In this document: in pieces, positions 20,361 through 59,432 of the stretch
How the letters are laid out: each line of letters opens with the position of its first letter
Position numbering within the stretch: the first letter of the stretch is position 1
From: Planctomycetaceae bacterium
GTDB taxonomy: Bacteria; Planctomycetota; Phycisphaerae; UBA1845; UTPLA1
Direction: 5' to 3'
Length of the DNA: 64,000 nt
Assembly: GCA_006969385.1 (NCBI GenBank)
Contig: CP030884.1
Coordinates: 4,272,249-4,336,248, forward strand
Program-made: the position numbers and the translations under genes
The notes under the pieces: model-generated
What the model saw: only the letters and a program-made list of their open reading frames with translations
What the model was told of the DNA's origin: nothing
The model's database searches: none

Positions 20361-22304
20361 ATGCCACGGACGGCGACCATCAATGAGACCTTCCTTGCCA
20401 ACATGCGCCAGCTCTGGCGCAGCGACCCGCCCCTGGCATGGGCCATCGATCAGCTACCATGCGATGCGCGCTTGACCGTCTTCGAATCGCGCAAAGGTCC
20501 ACCGACTGCCAGCGTCACGACCGAAGACGGTCGCACGCTATTTCTTCACAGTAAATATGATCCGCAACGCGAAGCCACCGAGCTTTGCAAACAACTCGAT
20601 GCCGAGCGTGCCGCGTGCGTCGTGCTCAACGGCTTCGGCCTCGGCCACGCGGTAACGGCAATTCACGAGCACCTTGGTAGCGATACGGTCGTGTTCGTCA
20701 CGGAACCCGACTTGGTTACGATTAAGACGGCGCTGGAAGAAGTCGATCTGGCGCGCGAGCTAGCAACCGGCCATGTGCGAATCATCACGCGACTTAACAA
20801 AGACTACCTACACGACACGCTAACGCCCTATTCGACGCAACTGATGCTCGGCACCGTCTTCGCTGTTCCGACGGTCGCGCGCGACCATCACGCAGTATTC
20901 CACGAACAAGCGCGGCAGGCGATTCTCGATTATGCATCGTTTGCGAAGATGTCGCTCACGACATTGGTACGCAACGCGGAAGTGACTTGCCGCAATATTG
21001 CAAACAATCTTCCGACCTACATCACGACGCCACCGCCAGATTTGTTAAGGGGCGCGTGCAAAGGCCTGCCGTCGGTATTAGTCGCCGCCGGTCCATCGCT
21101 GCGAAAAAATATCGCACAACTCGCCACGTTGCGCGATAAAGCCATCATCATCGCCGCGCAAACGACGCTGCGGCCATTGCTCGAACGCAACATCGTTCCC
21201 CACTTCGTCACGACGCTTGACTTCAGTGACTTGTCGAAACACTTCTTCGAGGGTTTGCGCATTCCGGAAGAAGTTATTCTGGTCGCAGAGCCAAAGGCGT
21301 CTTGGGCTGTAATCGATGCGTTTCGTGCGGCCGTGGTGGGTACGCCGCGCGTGGTGATGCTCGACAATAAATTTGCGCGACATTGTTTGGGGGATCGCCT
21401 TGCCGGTCGCGCGCGAATCGAACCCGGTGCGACCGTCATGCACCTCGCGTTTTATTTAGCGCAATGGCTGGGTTGCGATCCGATCGCATTTATCGGCCAA
21501 GATTTATCCTTCGGCGATCACACGTACTACGCCCCCGGCGTCGAAATGCACCGCACGTGGCAACCCGAATTGGGCCGCTTTAGCACGCTCGAAATGAAAG
21601 AGTGGGAACGCATCGCGCGACACCGCCCGATCCTGCGCCGAGTAGAAGGCATCGACGGCACGACCATTTACACCGACGAACAGATGCATACCTATTTGCA
21701 ACAGTTCGAGCGCGACTTTGCCCGCGCGCCGCAGACCGTGATCGACGCAACGGAGGGTGGTGCCCGCAAACAGGGCGCCGAAACAATGACGCTTGCGGAA
21801 GCGAGTGCAAAGTGGAAATCATCGGTTGCAAACTGGGCGACGCCGTTATCGCGCTACACGTGGGCCAATCTCGCGTTGGTACCGGAGGCGGTTCGCGCGT
21901 TGAATGAGCGTATGGCATCGCTCGATCAATTTGAAGCCTTATGCCGTGAGACCGAAAGTATCCTAGTCGAATTAGAAACGCTGATTGAACGCCCCGACCA
22001 ATTCAATCGCCGCATCGCGCGCGTGGATGAACTGCGCACGCTGGTTCAAATGCAAGGCCTGATTTTTCGCATGGTGCGCGACGTATCGCAACAGGCCGAG
22101 TTGCGCAAAATTTCCTCCGATCGTCGCCTCTCGAAGGACACGCCGGATGATGCAATGCGTGCGCGACGGCAACTGCGGCGCGATCGCAGCTTTATCGAAT
22201 CCATGTTGGACGGCTGCGCGCGTTTGCGACGCATTTTGCGAGACGCCGTTGAACGATTCGATCATCACGCGGTGAATGGAAATGACGAAGGTGGCCAACC
22301 ATGA
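20361..22304 (+). CDS. DUF115 / Maf-like protein (motility accessory factor family)
   Basis: 647 aa. The central part (about residues 225-450) is the DUF115 (MptE/Maf) domain: PSVLVAAGPSLRKNIAQL, IIAAQTTLRPLLERNIVPHF, GCDPIAFIGQDLSFGDHTYY and GATVMHLAFYLA. Flanking parts are alpha-helical. Maf proteins transfer nonulosonic acids to flagellin, and archaeal relatives make pterin diphosphates. The stop overlaps the start of the next gene (ATGA at 22301-22304), so translation is coupled. With that neighbour it probably forms a glycan-modification pair. No flagellin gene is in the window, so the acceptor is unknown. The start has no clear ribosome-binding site. Confidence 0.82.
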   Translation: MPRTATINETFLANMRQLWRSDPPLAWAIDQLPCDARLTVFESRKGPPTASVTTEDGRTLFLHSKYDPQREATELCKQLDAERAACVVLNGFGLGHAVTAIHEHLGSDTVVFVTEPDLVTIKTALEEVDLARELATGHVRIITRLNKDYLHDTLTPYSTQLMLGTVFAVPTVARDHHAVFHEQARQAILDYASFAKMSLTTLVRNAEVTCRNIANNLPTYITTPPPDLLRGACKGLPSVLVAAGPSLRKNIAQLATLRDKAIIIAAQTTLRPLLERNIVPHFVTTLDFSDLSKHFFEGLRIPEEVILVAEPKASWAVIDAFRAAVVGTPRVVMLDNKFARHCLGDRLAGRARIEPGATVMHLAFYLAQWLGCDPIAFIGQDLSFGDHTYYAPGVEMHRTWQPELGRFSTLEMKEWERIARHRPILRRVEGIDGTTIYTDEQMHTYLQQFERDFARAPQTVIDATEGGARKQGAETMTLAEASAKWKSSVANWATPLSRYTWANLALVPEAVRALNERMASLDQFEALCRETESILVELETLIERPDQFNRRIARVDELRTLVQMQGLIFRMVRDVSQQAELRKISSDRRLSKDTPDDAMRARRQLRRDRSFIESMLDGCARLRRILRDAVERFDHHAVNGNDEGGQP

Positions 22305-23935
22305 CGCAAAACGTCATCACCGCCATCTATGTCGACCTCGAGACCAATCCTCTCGGCTTAACAGCGCGTTTGTCACACGAACTCGCCGGTAAGCCAGTCC
22401 TGCGACATACAGTGGAACGTGCCCTCGCCATCGATGCTGTCTCGTCAACCCACATTTTGTGTCACGCCTCGCAACGCTCGGCCGTTGCCGATTTACTTGC
22501 AGACTTGCCCGTTACGCTGGACACGCATCAGGCACCCGCCCCTCCTTATCAAGACTTGGTCCGCAGTTCGCGCAGTTGGGGGCTCGATGGTTGGCGCGGC
22601 GGCATCGGCTCGCTGTGCACGTTCGATGAAGATTGCCACGGTGAATTGCTGGCCGCGCTCCAACATAAAACGAATGCCGATTCGATACTCACGATTCCCG
22701 CAGCGGCACCCTTGATCGATCCGGAACTATGCGGCGCGCTGATCGCCCATCATCGCGAGTTTATACAAGCGTCCGAATTGACCATCGTGCAAGCGCCACC
22801 GGGATTGAACGCGTTGGTCATGTCGGCCAACACGATTCAGCAGTTGCGGCAGATCGCCATGCCGCCGGGCGCGCTGCTGGTTTACCAACCCGATAGCCCG
22901 GTCGCCGATCTGACCGGTCGGGAAGGTTGTTACCGCCCAGCCACGGAAATTGTTCATGCGTCAGGGCGATTGTTAGCGGATACACAGCGTTCGTGGGAAC
23001 GCATCGGGCGCGTTGTTGAAGCCGGTGGTTTGAATTGGGACGCAGCGCGAATAGCGCAGTGGCTGATCGACGATAATTCGCAACGAATTGATGACGCGCC
23101 ACGCGAGATCGAAATCGAACTCACGACCGAGTGTCAATTCGCCACCAATGACCTGGCCTATCCGCGTGGTGAATACGTCTCCTCTCGCGGCCCATTAACC
23201 GTATCCGCAATAGAAAGCGTCACGTCAATCTGCCGGCGCTACGACGATATACGCGTCATGCTCGGCGGTTTCGGCGAGCCGACGTTGCATCCGCAATTTG
23301 CCGACATCTGCCGACAACTACGCGATGCTGGTGCATTAGCAATCGGCGTACGCAGCAATGGGCTCGCAATCCCCAAAGCTGCGGAATCTGCATTATTTGA
23401 AACCCCCGTCGATGTTATCGAAATCACACTCGATGCGGCAACGCCGGAAACGTACCAACGCATGCACGGTCGCGACGGTTTCGAGACAGTCGTCGCCACG
23501 ATGGAGCGGCTCATGCAACGTCGGCGCGACATGCAATCGGTGCGGCCTTTAATCGTGCCGTCGATGGTGAAGTGTGCCGAAACGCTCGACGATCTGGAGC
23601 AATTCGTCGATCGCTGGCAGCGAGCGTTTGGGATGTACGCCTTGCGCGGCATCAGCGACTACGGCGGCAGTTGGCATCCCGAGCGCGCCGTGCGTTTCTC
23701 CACCGCCCCCGGAAGTTGCACCGGTTGCCGCCGCGCCCGCACGCGATTGATGATACTGGCGGATGGTACGGTGACGACATGCGATCAGGATTTCGCCGGC
23801 AAGCAGGCGCTGGGCAACTTGCGAAACGACGGCCTTGAAGCGCTGTGGCAGTCAAACGCAATCAACACGGCGCGGATCGGAGCATTTTCGAGTTTACCGT
23901 TGTGCCAAAACTGCCAAGAATGGCACCGACCGTAG
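22301..23935 (+). CDS. Nucleotidyltransferase-like + degenerate radical SAM/SPASM fusion
   Basis: 544 aa. Residues about 1-230 resemble a SpsF/CMP-sugar-type nucleotidyltransferase (ARLSHELAGKPVLRHTVERAL, DADSI-type core). Residues about 268-470 have the radical SAM scaffold: EIELTTEC at the cluster site, GGFGEPTLHPQFADIC and VRSNGLAI. A SPASM-like tail follows with CTGC, TTCDQDF and LCQNCQEW. The cluster motif C-x3-C-x2-C keeps only C278. The second and third positions are Thr282 and Leu285. Radical chemistry is therefore doubtful unless ligands come from elsewhere. It overlaps the DUF115 gene by 4 bases and probably acts on the same glycan or peptide. Confidence 0.75.
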   Translation: MTQNVITAIYVDLETNPLGLTARLSHELAGKPVLRHTVERALAIDAVSSTHILCHASQRSAVADLLADLPVTLDTHQAPAPPYQDLVRSSRSWGLDGWRGGIGSLCTFDEDCHGELLAALQHKTNADSILTIPAAAPLIDPELCGALIAHHREFIQASELTIVQAPPGLNALVMSANTIQQLRQIAMPPGALLVYQPDSPVADLTGREGCYRPATEIVHASGRLLADTQRSWERIGRVVEAGGLNWDAARIAQWLIDDNSQRIDDAPREIEIELTTECQFATNDLAYPRGEYVSSRGPLTVSAIESVTSICRRYDDIRVMLGGFGEPTLHPQFADICRQLRDAGALAIGVRSNGLAIPKAAESALFETPVDVIEITLDAATPETYQRMHGRDGFETVVATMERLMQRRRDMQSVRPLIVPSMVKCAETLDDLEQFVDRWQRAFGMYALRGISDYGGSWHPERAVRFSTAPGSCTGCRRARTRLMILADGTVTTCDQDFAGKQALGNLRNDGLEALWQSNAINTARIGAFSSLPLCQNCQEWHRP

Positions 23936-23960
23936 TCGCGCAGGCCATTGCATTGAAACA

Positions 23961-24902
23961 CTAACCTTGCCGCGATTCCCAACGCGTAACAGCCTCCGCC
24001 AGCGTTTCAAACTGAAACGACTCGAGCAACCGATGCAGTCGCGTTTCGATCCGCTTGCGGAACATTCCTTGCGTCATGCCGCGCCAAGGCGAAAAGCGAA
24101 GGCCATCCCAGCGGTGCTCCTGAATGCCATCGATATCCAATTCGTACGGATGCATATACAACACAGCCAGTTGACCGCGTCGATTGCTCAGCGATATCGC
24201 TGTTCGTACTAACTGCCCCGGCAGTAACCGAAAGTATCCACCTCCGGCAATCGGCATGCTCCGACCGACCACGCGCACCGTGGCCGGCGGCGCCTCGATC
24301 AATTGCATTGCTGCCCAGCGATGAAACTCGCGCGGCGCGTTGGCAATGCCATAGCGCGGGTGTCGAATCGGAAACACGCTTGAGTCGTAGCGTAGCCCCA
24401 ACCGCTGCAGGATTTCTCCCGCCCAACGCGTCTCTTCGACAATACTAAACGCCGGCGCGCGATAGCCGATCGGTCGCGTGCCCGTCAACATGGTCAGAAT
24501 ATCGATGCTGCGTTGTACGTCCTCTTCAAAGCGATCGGGCGTAATATTCGTGAGCAGTTCGTGCCCATGCCCGTGCGAGGCGATTTCGTGACCGTCGTCC
24601 TGCACCATGCGAATCAAATCGGGATAGCGGTCGGCAACCTTGGTGAGCACGAAAAACGTCGCTCGCACATTGTGCCAGCGCAGGATGCGCAGAATTTGTT
24701 TCGTATTGTCGACCACGCGGCCGGAAATCTCGTGCTGCGGCCCGAGTACCGCAATCGGCCAATCCTCAAGATCGACCGTGAAGACGTTGCGCACAGTCTT
24801 ATCGACCGGCGACTGCTGCCGGATGGTTCGATCGTTTTGGGTCGGCGCGCGAGCGACCGTCGCTTGCCGCAGCATCGGACCCGATTCGATTGCGCTCGCC
24901 AT
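23961..24902 (-). CDS. Polysaccharide deacetylase, PEP-CTERM/exosortase-locus type
   Basis: 313 aa. A NodB domain is visible: FTVDLEDW (about residue 42), RATFFVLTKVADRYPDLI, HEIASHGHGHELL with the metal histidines, and GYRAPAFSI. The C-terminal part (SMPIAGGGYFRLLPGQLV, AVLYMHPYELD) matches the DUF3473 extension of deacetylases from PEP-CTERM-linked exopolysaccharide loci (TIGR03006 type). It probably removes acetyl groups from an N-acetylated surface glycan. It lies 24 bases after the M16 peptidase gene on the same strand and ends facing the DUF115 pair. The exosortase itself is not in the window, but a PEP-CTERM substrate is (54645-55331). Confidence 0.85.
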   Translation of the reverse strand: MASAIESGPMLRQATVARAPTQNDRTIRQQSPVDKTVRNVFTVDLEDWPIAVLGPQHEISGRVVDNTKQILRILRWHNVRATFFVLTKVADRYPDLIRMVQDDGHEIASHGHGHELLTNITPDRFEEDVQRSIDILTMLTGTRPIGYRAPAFSIVEETRWAGEILQRLGLRYDSSVFPIRHPRYGIANAPREFHRWAAMQLIEAPPATVRVVGRSMPIAGGGYFRLLPGQLVRTAISLSNRRGQLAVLYMHPYELDIDGIQEHRWDGLRFSPWRGMTQGMFRKRIETRLHRLLESFQFETLAEAVTRWESRQG

Positions 24903-54644: not shown

Positions 54645-55331
54645 TTAGTTTGCCGAGCGGCGACGACGAATCAGCGCAACCCCGGCCAACAACACCAAAA
54701 CGCCCGTCGTCGGTTCCGGCACCAACCGCACCTGATCGAGATCGAACGTCACCTGCGCCGGTAATCCCGCCACGCCTGCGGTGATTGACGGTCCGATCTG
54801 GATGTGGCCGATCAGTCCAAACACGCTGTTAAAGTCCATCCCTTCGAATGTCACGAATTGCGGGCTGCTCGGATCGATTGGAAAGCTGACTTGCGTCCAG
54901 ACGTTCGGGAACACCGGCACAAAATCCACCGATACGGCCCCCGGGAAATTTCCCGGTCCGCTGAACCGCGTGAACATGTTGATCGGTGCCGGCGCGTTAT
55001 GACGGATGAACGCCGTCAATTCGGTGGCACCGTTGGTGAGGTAGTTACCGACAAAGGCGTTGCCGCTGGAGCCGAATTCATCCTGTGCGCGGAACAACGC
55101 GGGCGTGTCGGCAGCCATGGAGGTCGAGAGATCGAGTACTTCACTGATGTAGCCACCGCCATCGGAACCGCCCGTGGCGTTGTACGTCGCGGGGCCAAAA
55201 CCACCGGCGTTAAACCAGTTAGCCGCATCCGTGTCGAAGTTTTCTTCGATCGGTAAGCTGGCCTGCGCCGTTGCGGTAAAGCCCAAAGCAAAAGTCAAAA
55301 CCAGCAGTTTGCAAGAGTTGCGATTCATCAT
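54645..55331 (-). CDS. PEP-CTERM sorted exported protein
   Basis: 228 aa. Signal peptide (KLLVLTFALGFTATAQA), then a beta-rich domain with FDTDAANWFNAGGFG and FDLDQVRLVPEP. The C-terminus has the full PEP-CTERM signal: VPEPTTG, a membrane segment (VLVLLAGVALI) and RRRR. Exosortase would cut it and link it to the envelope. Two adjacent ATG codons exist at 55331 and 55328. The mature function is unknown. The deacetylase at 23961 belongs to the class that goes with exosortase loci. Confidence 0.9.
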   Translation of the reverse strand: MMNRNSCKLLVLTFALGFTATAQASLPIEENFDTDAANWFNAGGFGPATYNATGGSDGGGYISEVLDLSTSMAADTPALFRAQDEFGSSGNAFVGNYLTNGATELTAFIRHNAPAPINMFTRFSGPGNFPGAVSVDFVPVFPNVWTQVSFPIDPSSPQFVTFEGMDFNSVFGLIGHIQIGPSITAGVAGLPAQVTFDLDQVRLVPEPTTGVLVLLAGVALIRRRRSAN

Positions 55332-58170: not shown

Positions 58171-58527
58171 GTGCTCAGCTATCATGACGCCAGCGACCGT
58201 GCCGCTCGATATGCCGTTGCCACCGGCGACGCCGTCAACCTTGCAACGATTCAAGCCACGCAACTGGCGGAAGGCTTCACACCCTGCTTTGGCCGTGCCT
58301 CGGCCCCCTGTAACGAAACCGCCTGCAGCTTTCACGAACCCTGCATGAACCTGCTGGCATTTTCCAGCCAACCAGCCCCCAGCGATGAAGCCGCACGCGA
58401 CTACGCCAGTTGGAGCCTTCCGGCGGATTCGCTCCTGCCATCCGTCCTGCACAGCGCACCGATCACGCCCGATATCGCCGCTTTCAATCGACCCGTCCAT
58501 CAGCGTTACGAAGTGTTGAACGACTAG
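58171..58527 (+). CDS. Small Cys-containing protein of unknown function, 118 aa
   Basis: GTG at 58171 with AAGGGAG six bases before it. The product begins MLSYHDASDRAARYAVATGD. Four cysteines are clustered (CFGRASAPCNETACSFHEPC). No family is recognised, and there is no signal peptide. Spacing of the cysteines could suit metal binding. It overlaps the convergent RlmN-like gene by 4 bases. Confidence 0.5.
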   Translation: MLSYHDASDRAARYAVATGDAVNLATIQATQLAEGFTPCFGRASAPCNETACSFHEPCMNLLAFSSQPAPSDEAARDYASWSLPADSLLPSVLHSAPITPDIAAFNRPVHQRYEVLND

Positions 58528-59432
58528 CGGTGCTTGAGGCGCTTCAGCGCAAGATTGCCGAGTTGCCCGCACGCACCCATCGCGCCGCGCCCTTTGGTGC
58601 GACGCCGAAACGTCATCTGCCCGAGGCTCATCAATTCCCGCTGAAACGTGTCGATCGTTTCATCGCTCGGCGTTTTGTGGTCCAGCCCTTCGCACGGATT
58701 CCACGGAATCAGATTCACGCAGGTCGGCAACCCTTTGAGATAGGCCGCCAATTCCCGCGCGTGTTCCAACGTGTCATTCACACCGGCTAGCATCACGTAC
58801 TCGATCAGAATATGCCCGCCCGCCCGCACCGGGTAACTCGCAATCGCCTCGCGCAATTCGGCCATCGGTGAGCGCCGATTGATCGGCATAATCTGATCGC
58901 GAATCTCGTCGTTGGGGGCGTTCAGCGATATCGCCAATCCCAACCGTCGGTAGTTCAGGCTGGCCAGCTTGCGAATCCCCTCACAATGCCCGACCGTCGA
59001 AACCGTAATGCGACGGCGGGCGATCTCGAAGCGTTTGTCGCGATGCAAGATTTCGATTGACTCGACCACGTTCTCGTAATTGTCGAGCGGCTCGCCCATC
59101 CCCATGAAGACGACGTTGCGCACCTGCGCCTCAAAGGCGGCGTTGGCGGCCGCAACCTGCCCGATGATTTCATCGACCGTGAGATTGCGAATCAGCCCCA
59201 TCCGCGCCGTCTGGCAGAATGTGCAGCCCCGAGCACAGCCGATCTGCGAACTGACGCAGAGCGTGTTCCAAAACACGCCCTTGCCCCCCATCGGAATCAC
59301 GACCGACTCGATCTCCAATTCGTCGTGCGTGCGCTGGCAAAATTTGACCGTCTCGGCTTCGTTGCGCATGCGGACGATGGGCAGCGTGCCGTCGTCAAAC
59401 GAATGAATCGGTGGGTCTAAATCGAGACGCAT
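58524..59432 (-). CDS. RlmN-like radical SAM rRNA/tRNA methyltransferase, short form
   Basis: 302 aa. Radical SAM cluster motif CARGCTFC, then MGMGEPLDNYENVVES, AISLNAPNDEIRDQI, VMLAGVNDTLEHAR, NLIPWNPCEG. The second conserved Cys is in GAMGACGQLGNLA. RlmN methylates A2503 of 23S rRNA and A37 of some tRNAs. The usual N-terminal helix-hairpin-helix domain is missing (302 against about 370 residues), and the frame before MRLDLDPPIHS has no homology. It may belong to a short RlmN-like clade. Confidence 0.88.
   Translation of the reverse strand: MRLDLDPPIHSFDDGTLPIVRMRNEAETVKFCQRTHDELEIESVVIPMGGKGVFWNTLCVSSQIGCARGCTFCQTARMGLIRNLTVDEIIGQVAAANAAFEAQVRNVVFMGMGEPLDNYENVVESIEILHRDKRFEIARRRITVSTVGHCEGIRKLASLNYRRLGLAISLNAPNDEIRDQIMPINRRSPMAELREAIASYPVRAGGHILIEYVMLAGVNDTLEHARELAAYLKGLPTCVNLIPWNPCEGLDHKTPSDETIDTFQRELMSLGQMTFRRRTKGRGAMGACGQLGNLALKRLKHR

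Follow-up and report, generated by a model that had tools for sequence, protein, structure and literature searches.

The Maf and PseD proteins are transferases that move nonulosonic acids onto flagellin, and members of the Maf group act on flagellin in phyla other than the one considered here (PMC4065374, PMC11339370). In the solved Maf, the central PF01973 (DUF115) domain resembles a sialyltransferase, and it is accompanied by N- and C-terminal domains whose function is unclear (PMC11339370). Activity of Maf has been shown in other systems without a partner of the kind described below, and the Maf literature examined holds no description of such a partner.

Three further families bear on that partner. 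NeuA and PseF (PF02348) are the CMP-nonulosonic-acid synthetases, with a catalytic P-loop (R-x-GSKG-x-x-x-K) and a metal-binding Asp. The radical SAM/SPASM enzymes (PF04055 and PF13186) carry a CxxxCxxC motif that binds the [4Fe-4S] cluster. Spiro-SPASM (NCBIfam TIGR04321) is a family of the spirochetes, the flagellins of which are glycosylated (PMC13144727). Our literature search returned no paper on spiro-SPASM or the function of TIGR04321, nothing on radical-SAM pseudoenzymes with SPASM, and nothing on nonulosonic acid with flagella in bacteria of the source's group. The locus described here lies in the window, the whole 64,000-nucleotide stretch of planctomycete DNA that was analysed. As Maf-type nonulosonic-acid glycosylation the system itself is ordinary; it is the conserved partner, an apparent double pseudoenzyme, that is unusual.

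Gene organization and conservation of the pair

The features of the locus, in window coordinates, are as follows.

20361..22304 (+), DUF115/MptE-like (PF01973) Maf-type glycosyltransferase, 647 aa; PF01973 at residues 212-386, E 5.9e-34
20994..21518 (+), central PF01973 domain of the DUF115 gene, by profile match
22301..22304 (+), ATGA overlap of four bases between the DUF115 stop and the fusion start
22301..23935 (+), fusion protein, 544 aa: degenerate nucleotidyltransferase, pseudo-radical SAM and SPASM
22304..22774 (+), N-terminal domain of the fusion protein (residues 2-158), a NeuA-type homologue by hhalign
22571..22630 (+), motif R91-x-W93 ... W98-R99-G-G ... D109-E110 of the N-terminal domain, by alignment
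22700..22711 (+), AAAP (residues 134-137 of the fusion protein) at the DxP position of related families, by alignment
23093..23635 (+), radical-SAM-type barrel of the fusion protein (about residues 265-445; PF04055 at residues 304-409)
23129..23155 (+), CQFATNDLA replacing CxxxCxxC in the fusion protein, by alignment and whole-sequence pattern search
23726..23917 (+), SPASM domain of the fusion protein with C476, C494, C535 and C538; PF13186, E 3.4e-11
23961..24902 (-), polysaccharide deacetylase (Polysacc_deac_1 and DUF3473), 313 aa, outside the unit

The open reading frames agree with the first-pass annotation, which had placed two overlapping plus-strand genes tail to tail with a deacetylase gene; the stops of the fusion and deacetylase genes are separated by 25 bases (23936-23960), and the names it had given to the domains were borne out by domain searches. 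A gene-neighbourhood survey had also been proposed there, and it linked the fusion protein by synteny to DUF115 and nonulosonic-acid genes, and by phyletic pattern to flagellin. Order, class and phylum denote here the kinship levels of the genome set compared. Within the order, 98 of 101 genomes were matched at E <= 0.001, three of these matches (G074, G076 and G096) being background radical-SAM similarity that was left out, and the specific fusion protein was found in 95 of the 101, in some as contig-end fragments. Forty order loci were inspected together with about 8 kb of flanking sequence in each direction, as far as the contigs reached. In 38 of them the gene immediately upstream, in the same orientation, is DUF115, and the overlap is exactly four bases in 30 of these 38 adjacent pairs. 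The remaining neighbours in the window, the deacetylase included, hold their position in just one genome among the 40 loci (G001), and a genome of the same genus (G002) shares with the window the DUF115-fusion pair and none of its other neighbours. Conservation of the pair across genomes excludes chance adjacency, and the DUF115 and fusion genes are a conserved unit.

The two proteins also occur as one polypeptide (DUF115-NTP-pseudo-rSAM), with a single open frame of about 1,110-1,470 aa, in 15 genomes of families f9, f15, f16 and f60. The first three are families of the class, and f60, represented by G188, is more distant. These 15 cases are apparently intact, and two more (G271 and G313) are decayed. 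The natural joining of genes that are elsewhere separate strongly supports a functional association of DUF115 and its partner.

The DUF115 protein itself belongs to PF01973 (117.8 bits against a cut-off of 34.6), and its GPSL and GQDL motifs are invariant in 38 sequences. It has in common with Maf and PseD proteins the central domain as well as co-occurrence with nonulosonic-acid genes and flagellin, but it is distant from them and differs in having an adjoining or fused partner. The PseD-like model NF050051 gave 59.7 bits (2.1e-16) against a cut-off of 670, by which the protein appears to be related to, but not itself, a Campylobacter-type PseD, and the closest solved structure is an MptE-type pyrophosphokinase (E 1.7e-4). 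In another class, DUF115 occurs without the fusion protein a few kb from flagellin genes (L137 and L138 of family f22, in G129 and G159, and also G172), which is the classical Maf arrangement.

The sugar and its acceptor

The pair is probably a two-component Maf-type nonulosonic-acid O-glycosyltransferase for flagellin with a dedicated, probably non-catalytic partner. We infer the transfer reaction from the homology of DUF115 to Maf: the protein would move a nonulosonic acid (of the sialic, legionaminic or pseudaminic type) from its CMP form onto flagellin in the cytoplasm, the CMP-activated sugar being supplied by a neuA-neuB cluster elsewhere in the genome. That the two genes are translationally coupled, occur fused and are lost together speaks for a stoichiometric complex, in which partner and Maf would stand at 1:1. 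The partner would most likely act by binding, holding or positioning CMP-sugar or acceptor flagellin, or else stabilising Maf; its NeuA-like domain suggests that it may bind the CMP-sugar.

Among the class relatives, nonulosonic-acid genes follow directly behind the unit on the same strand (NeuA at 24 loci, NeuB at 16 and NeuC at 20). On representatives, NeuC_NnaA scored 394 bits against its cut-off of 236 and NeuD was likewise above cut-off, whereas NeuB_NnaB and PseF, though the best NCBIfam models, fell under theirs; the sugar is therefore named broadly as a nonulosonic acid. Within the source's own order the pair is in most cases without Neu genes alongside, and NeuC/NeuB face it in four genomes (G017, G022, G028 and G042; loci L046, L052, L263 and L264). 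The source genome has one NeuB and one DUF115, with adjacent NeuA- and NeuB-type matches at G000:C1:5157704-5159274. An HDOD gene follows this NeuA-NeuB and recurs beside NeuB in several families (L104:12900-13793, L046, L263, L260:9665-10543).

Across 41 class genomes, the fusion protein and DUF115 were present together in 27 and absent together from 13, with the fusion protein by itself in one and DUF115 by itself in none. The corresponding counts for NeuB were 26 with both, 11 with neither, two with the fusion protein only and two with NeuB only (Fisher p 1.7e-6), and for flagellin 26, seven, two and six (p 0.002), these p-values being optimistic in that they treat genomes as independent and ignore shared ancestry. 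Both genomes with the fusion protein and no flagellin (G271 and G313, noted above) are also without NeuB, and their DUF115 is decayed. All six with flagellin and no fusion protein belong to family f14, and five of them are without NeuB too. Since f14 has flagellin without the fusion protein, the latter is tied most closely to DUF115 and NeuB, and more loosely to flagellin.

The same two-component Maf-type nonulosonic-acid transferase could instead serve an S-layer or other secreted surface protein. The looser flagellin link and the flagellates of f14 that have no pair speak for such an acceptor, as does gene position: the source genome has four PF00669 flagellin matches, and the pair has no flagellin gene in its vicinity. 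Set against this is the pattern of loss. Within the order, G048, G057 (55% complete), G074 and G075 have no flagellin; G048, G054, G074, G075, G076 and G096 have no fusion protein; and G074, G075 and G087 have no NeuB, G048 having only a weak, distant one. Three genomes from three families (G048, G074 and G075) are thus without flagellin, fusion protein and full-type NeuB, which makes more than one joint loss probable. The evidence of loss is weaker for G048 (72% complete) and G074 (87%) than for G075 (98%). Against the flagellin reading, three order genomes (G054, G076 and G096, 77-84% complete) have flagellin and no fusion protein. Flagellin, NeuB and fusion protein have also been lost together in members of the class families f11, f13 and f15, and the characterised Maf proteins target flagellin (PMC4065374). 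A different acceptor is on this balance unlikely.

Elsewhere in the source genome, at a site that also holds fliD and fliS, one flagellin gene is preceded by a glycosyltransferase and an HldE-like kinase/adenylyltransferase (L261:8542-11468), which represent a possible second glycan route.

The partner as a candidate double pseudoenzyme

The fusion protein is matched in Pfam by SPASM (3.4e-11), Radical_SAM (7.7e-10) and, below cut-off, NTP_transf_3 (1.8e-4). Its N-terminal residues 2-158 are homologous to NeuA and PseF (hhalign against a NeuA alignment, probability 83.6, E 8.2e-6), but the P-loop with its Lys and the metal-binding Asp of the DxP type are not preserved in the order, which sets the domain apart from the CMP-nonulosonic-acid synthetases; the true NeuA is a separate gene. 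At the DxP position, where related families read GPDWPL or ADCPLL, the window protein carries AAAP and has lost the putative metal-binding Asp. The most conserved motif of this domain, RxW....WRGG.......DE, persists in most versions, among them most that have no SPASM cysteines.

The remainder of the protein shares its barrel and SPASM domain with the radical SAM/SPASM enzymes, and both could be recognised in all 44 aligned members, but it is without CxxxCxxC and so has no canonical radical cluster. The Radical_SAM match begins at profile position 30, and the stretch that should hold the motif reads CQFATNDLAY, the copies in the window and in G001 keeping one Cys of three. By alignment and pattern search of whole sequences, none of the 83 members examined in the phylum has CxxxCxxC. 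The SPASM domain fits its family by PF13186 match and by conserved cysteines, with C476, C494, C535 and C538 invariant in 47 of 47 order sequences and forming one putative Fe-S cluster site, and these cysteines are gone in nearly all single-chain versions. The catalytic residues of both the nucleotidyltransferase and radical-SAM domains thus appear lost, and it is from this absence of known catalytic residues that the partner is considered probably inactive. Its pattern of conservation would fit selection for structure or binding and not for radical chemistry. A PDB sequence search with the fusion protein returned no useful relative, and a fold prediction of it alone, made without an alignment of relatives, had a mean pLDDT of 39.1 and was left unused. 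A further radical SAM protein (PF04055, 1.4e-17) is encoded in the window at 58527-59432 (-), distant from the pair.

It may be asked if the fusion protein has kept an enzymatic role, either activating or editing a sugar through its N-terminal domain with altered residues, or using SPASM-type Fe-S redox chemistry in place of the radical cluster. Strong conservation of the RxW..WRGG..DE motif and the invariance of the SPASM cysteines in the order would favour this, as would the retention of DxP (GPDWPL) by several families outside the order and of CxxxCxxC by 11 of 20 spirochete relatives. The uniform absence of CxxxCxxC in the phylum, the lost Asp and P-loop in the order, and the lost SPASM cysteines of most single-chain versions all point the other way, and we regard continued catalysis as quite unlikely. 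The role in activating a sugar that had been suggested for the fusion protein is likewise doubtful, in that order members are without the nucleotidyltransferase catalytic residues and a separate NeuA-type match stands beside NeuB.

The nearest named family to this probably non-catalytic partner is spiro-SPASM, to which residues 224-542 are homologous (TIGR04321, E 1.2e-35), although at 123.2 bits against a cut-off of 250 the fusion protein falls outside it. In 28 spirochete genomes, reached through loci found by 16S pattern, a TIGR04321-type protein was found in 23 and DUF115 in 27, the latter in one to five copies. A spiro-SPASM/DUF115 pairing in spirochetes was considered and rejected, as the two, each present in most of these genomes, lie in separate places; the recurring neighbours of spiro-SPASM are a SurA-type PPIase, exonuclease VII and MutL. 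The spirochete proteins also differ in that most keep DxP and 11 of 20 (L294-L313) keep CxxxCxxC, which is missing in the other nine as it is in the fusion protein. These nine mostly keep the SPASM cysteines, and one (L301) has lost them too.

The neighbouring deacetylase

The deacetylase had been taken as exosortase-linked and as trimming the transferred sugar within a dedicated route. Its best NCBIfam model is indeed TIGR03006, the XrtA system polysaccharide deacetylase, but its 246.9 bits lie just under the cut-off of 276.2. A PEP-CTERM protein is present in the window, as had been observed (54645-55331 (-)), with a C-terminal VPEP sorting signal ending VPEPTTGVLVLLAGVALIRRRRSAN, and the single exosortase of the genome lies 2.8 Mb from the pair (G000:C1:1507288-1508070); nothing was found in favour of a tie between these and the pair. 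As a member of the unit the deacetylase was rejected, since it adjoins the pair in G001 only and does not do so even in G002, a member of the same genus, and it is an incidental neighbour. The dedicated route holds for DUF115 and the pseudo-radical-SAM fusion, which are a conserved pair, and not for the deacetylase. A three-gene locus for sugar activation, transfer and deacetylation on an envelope target, tied to exosortase and PEP-CTERM, would draw on the closeness of the deacetylase to the XrtA-system model and on the presence of one exosortase and a PEP-CTERM protein, and is highly improbable given the convergent transcription of the deacetylase, the remote exosortase and, above all, a neighbourhood survey that keeps the three-gene grouping in G001 alone.

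Implications

The two-component Maf-type transferase with a probably non-catalytic partner allows a more tentative extension, which we hold as a conjecture more doubtful than probable: that a class of Maf works only with a double-pseudoenzyme partner, in which a dead CMP-sugar-synthetase domain would carry the CMP-nonulosonic acid and a dead radical-SAM barrel would recognise flagellin. Spiro-SPASM would then be a relative in which the radical site is being lost repeatedly, and may have a part in modifying flagellin in the spirochetes as well. The partner offers a case of a radical-SAM lineage without its radical site that is still strongly constrained beside, or fused to, a glycosyltransferase. 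Together, these observations suggest a role, open to testing, for a protein that nearly all the examined genomes of a single bacterial order carry, and through homology they offer a starting point for the uncharacterised spiro-SPASM family of spirochetes.
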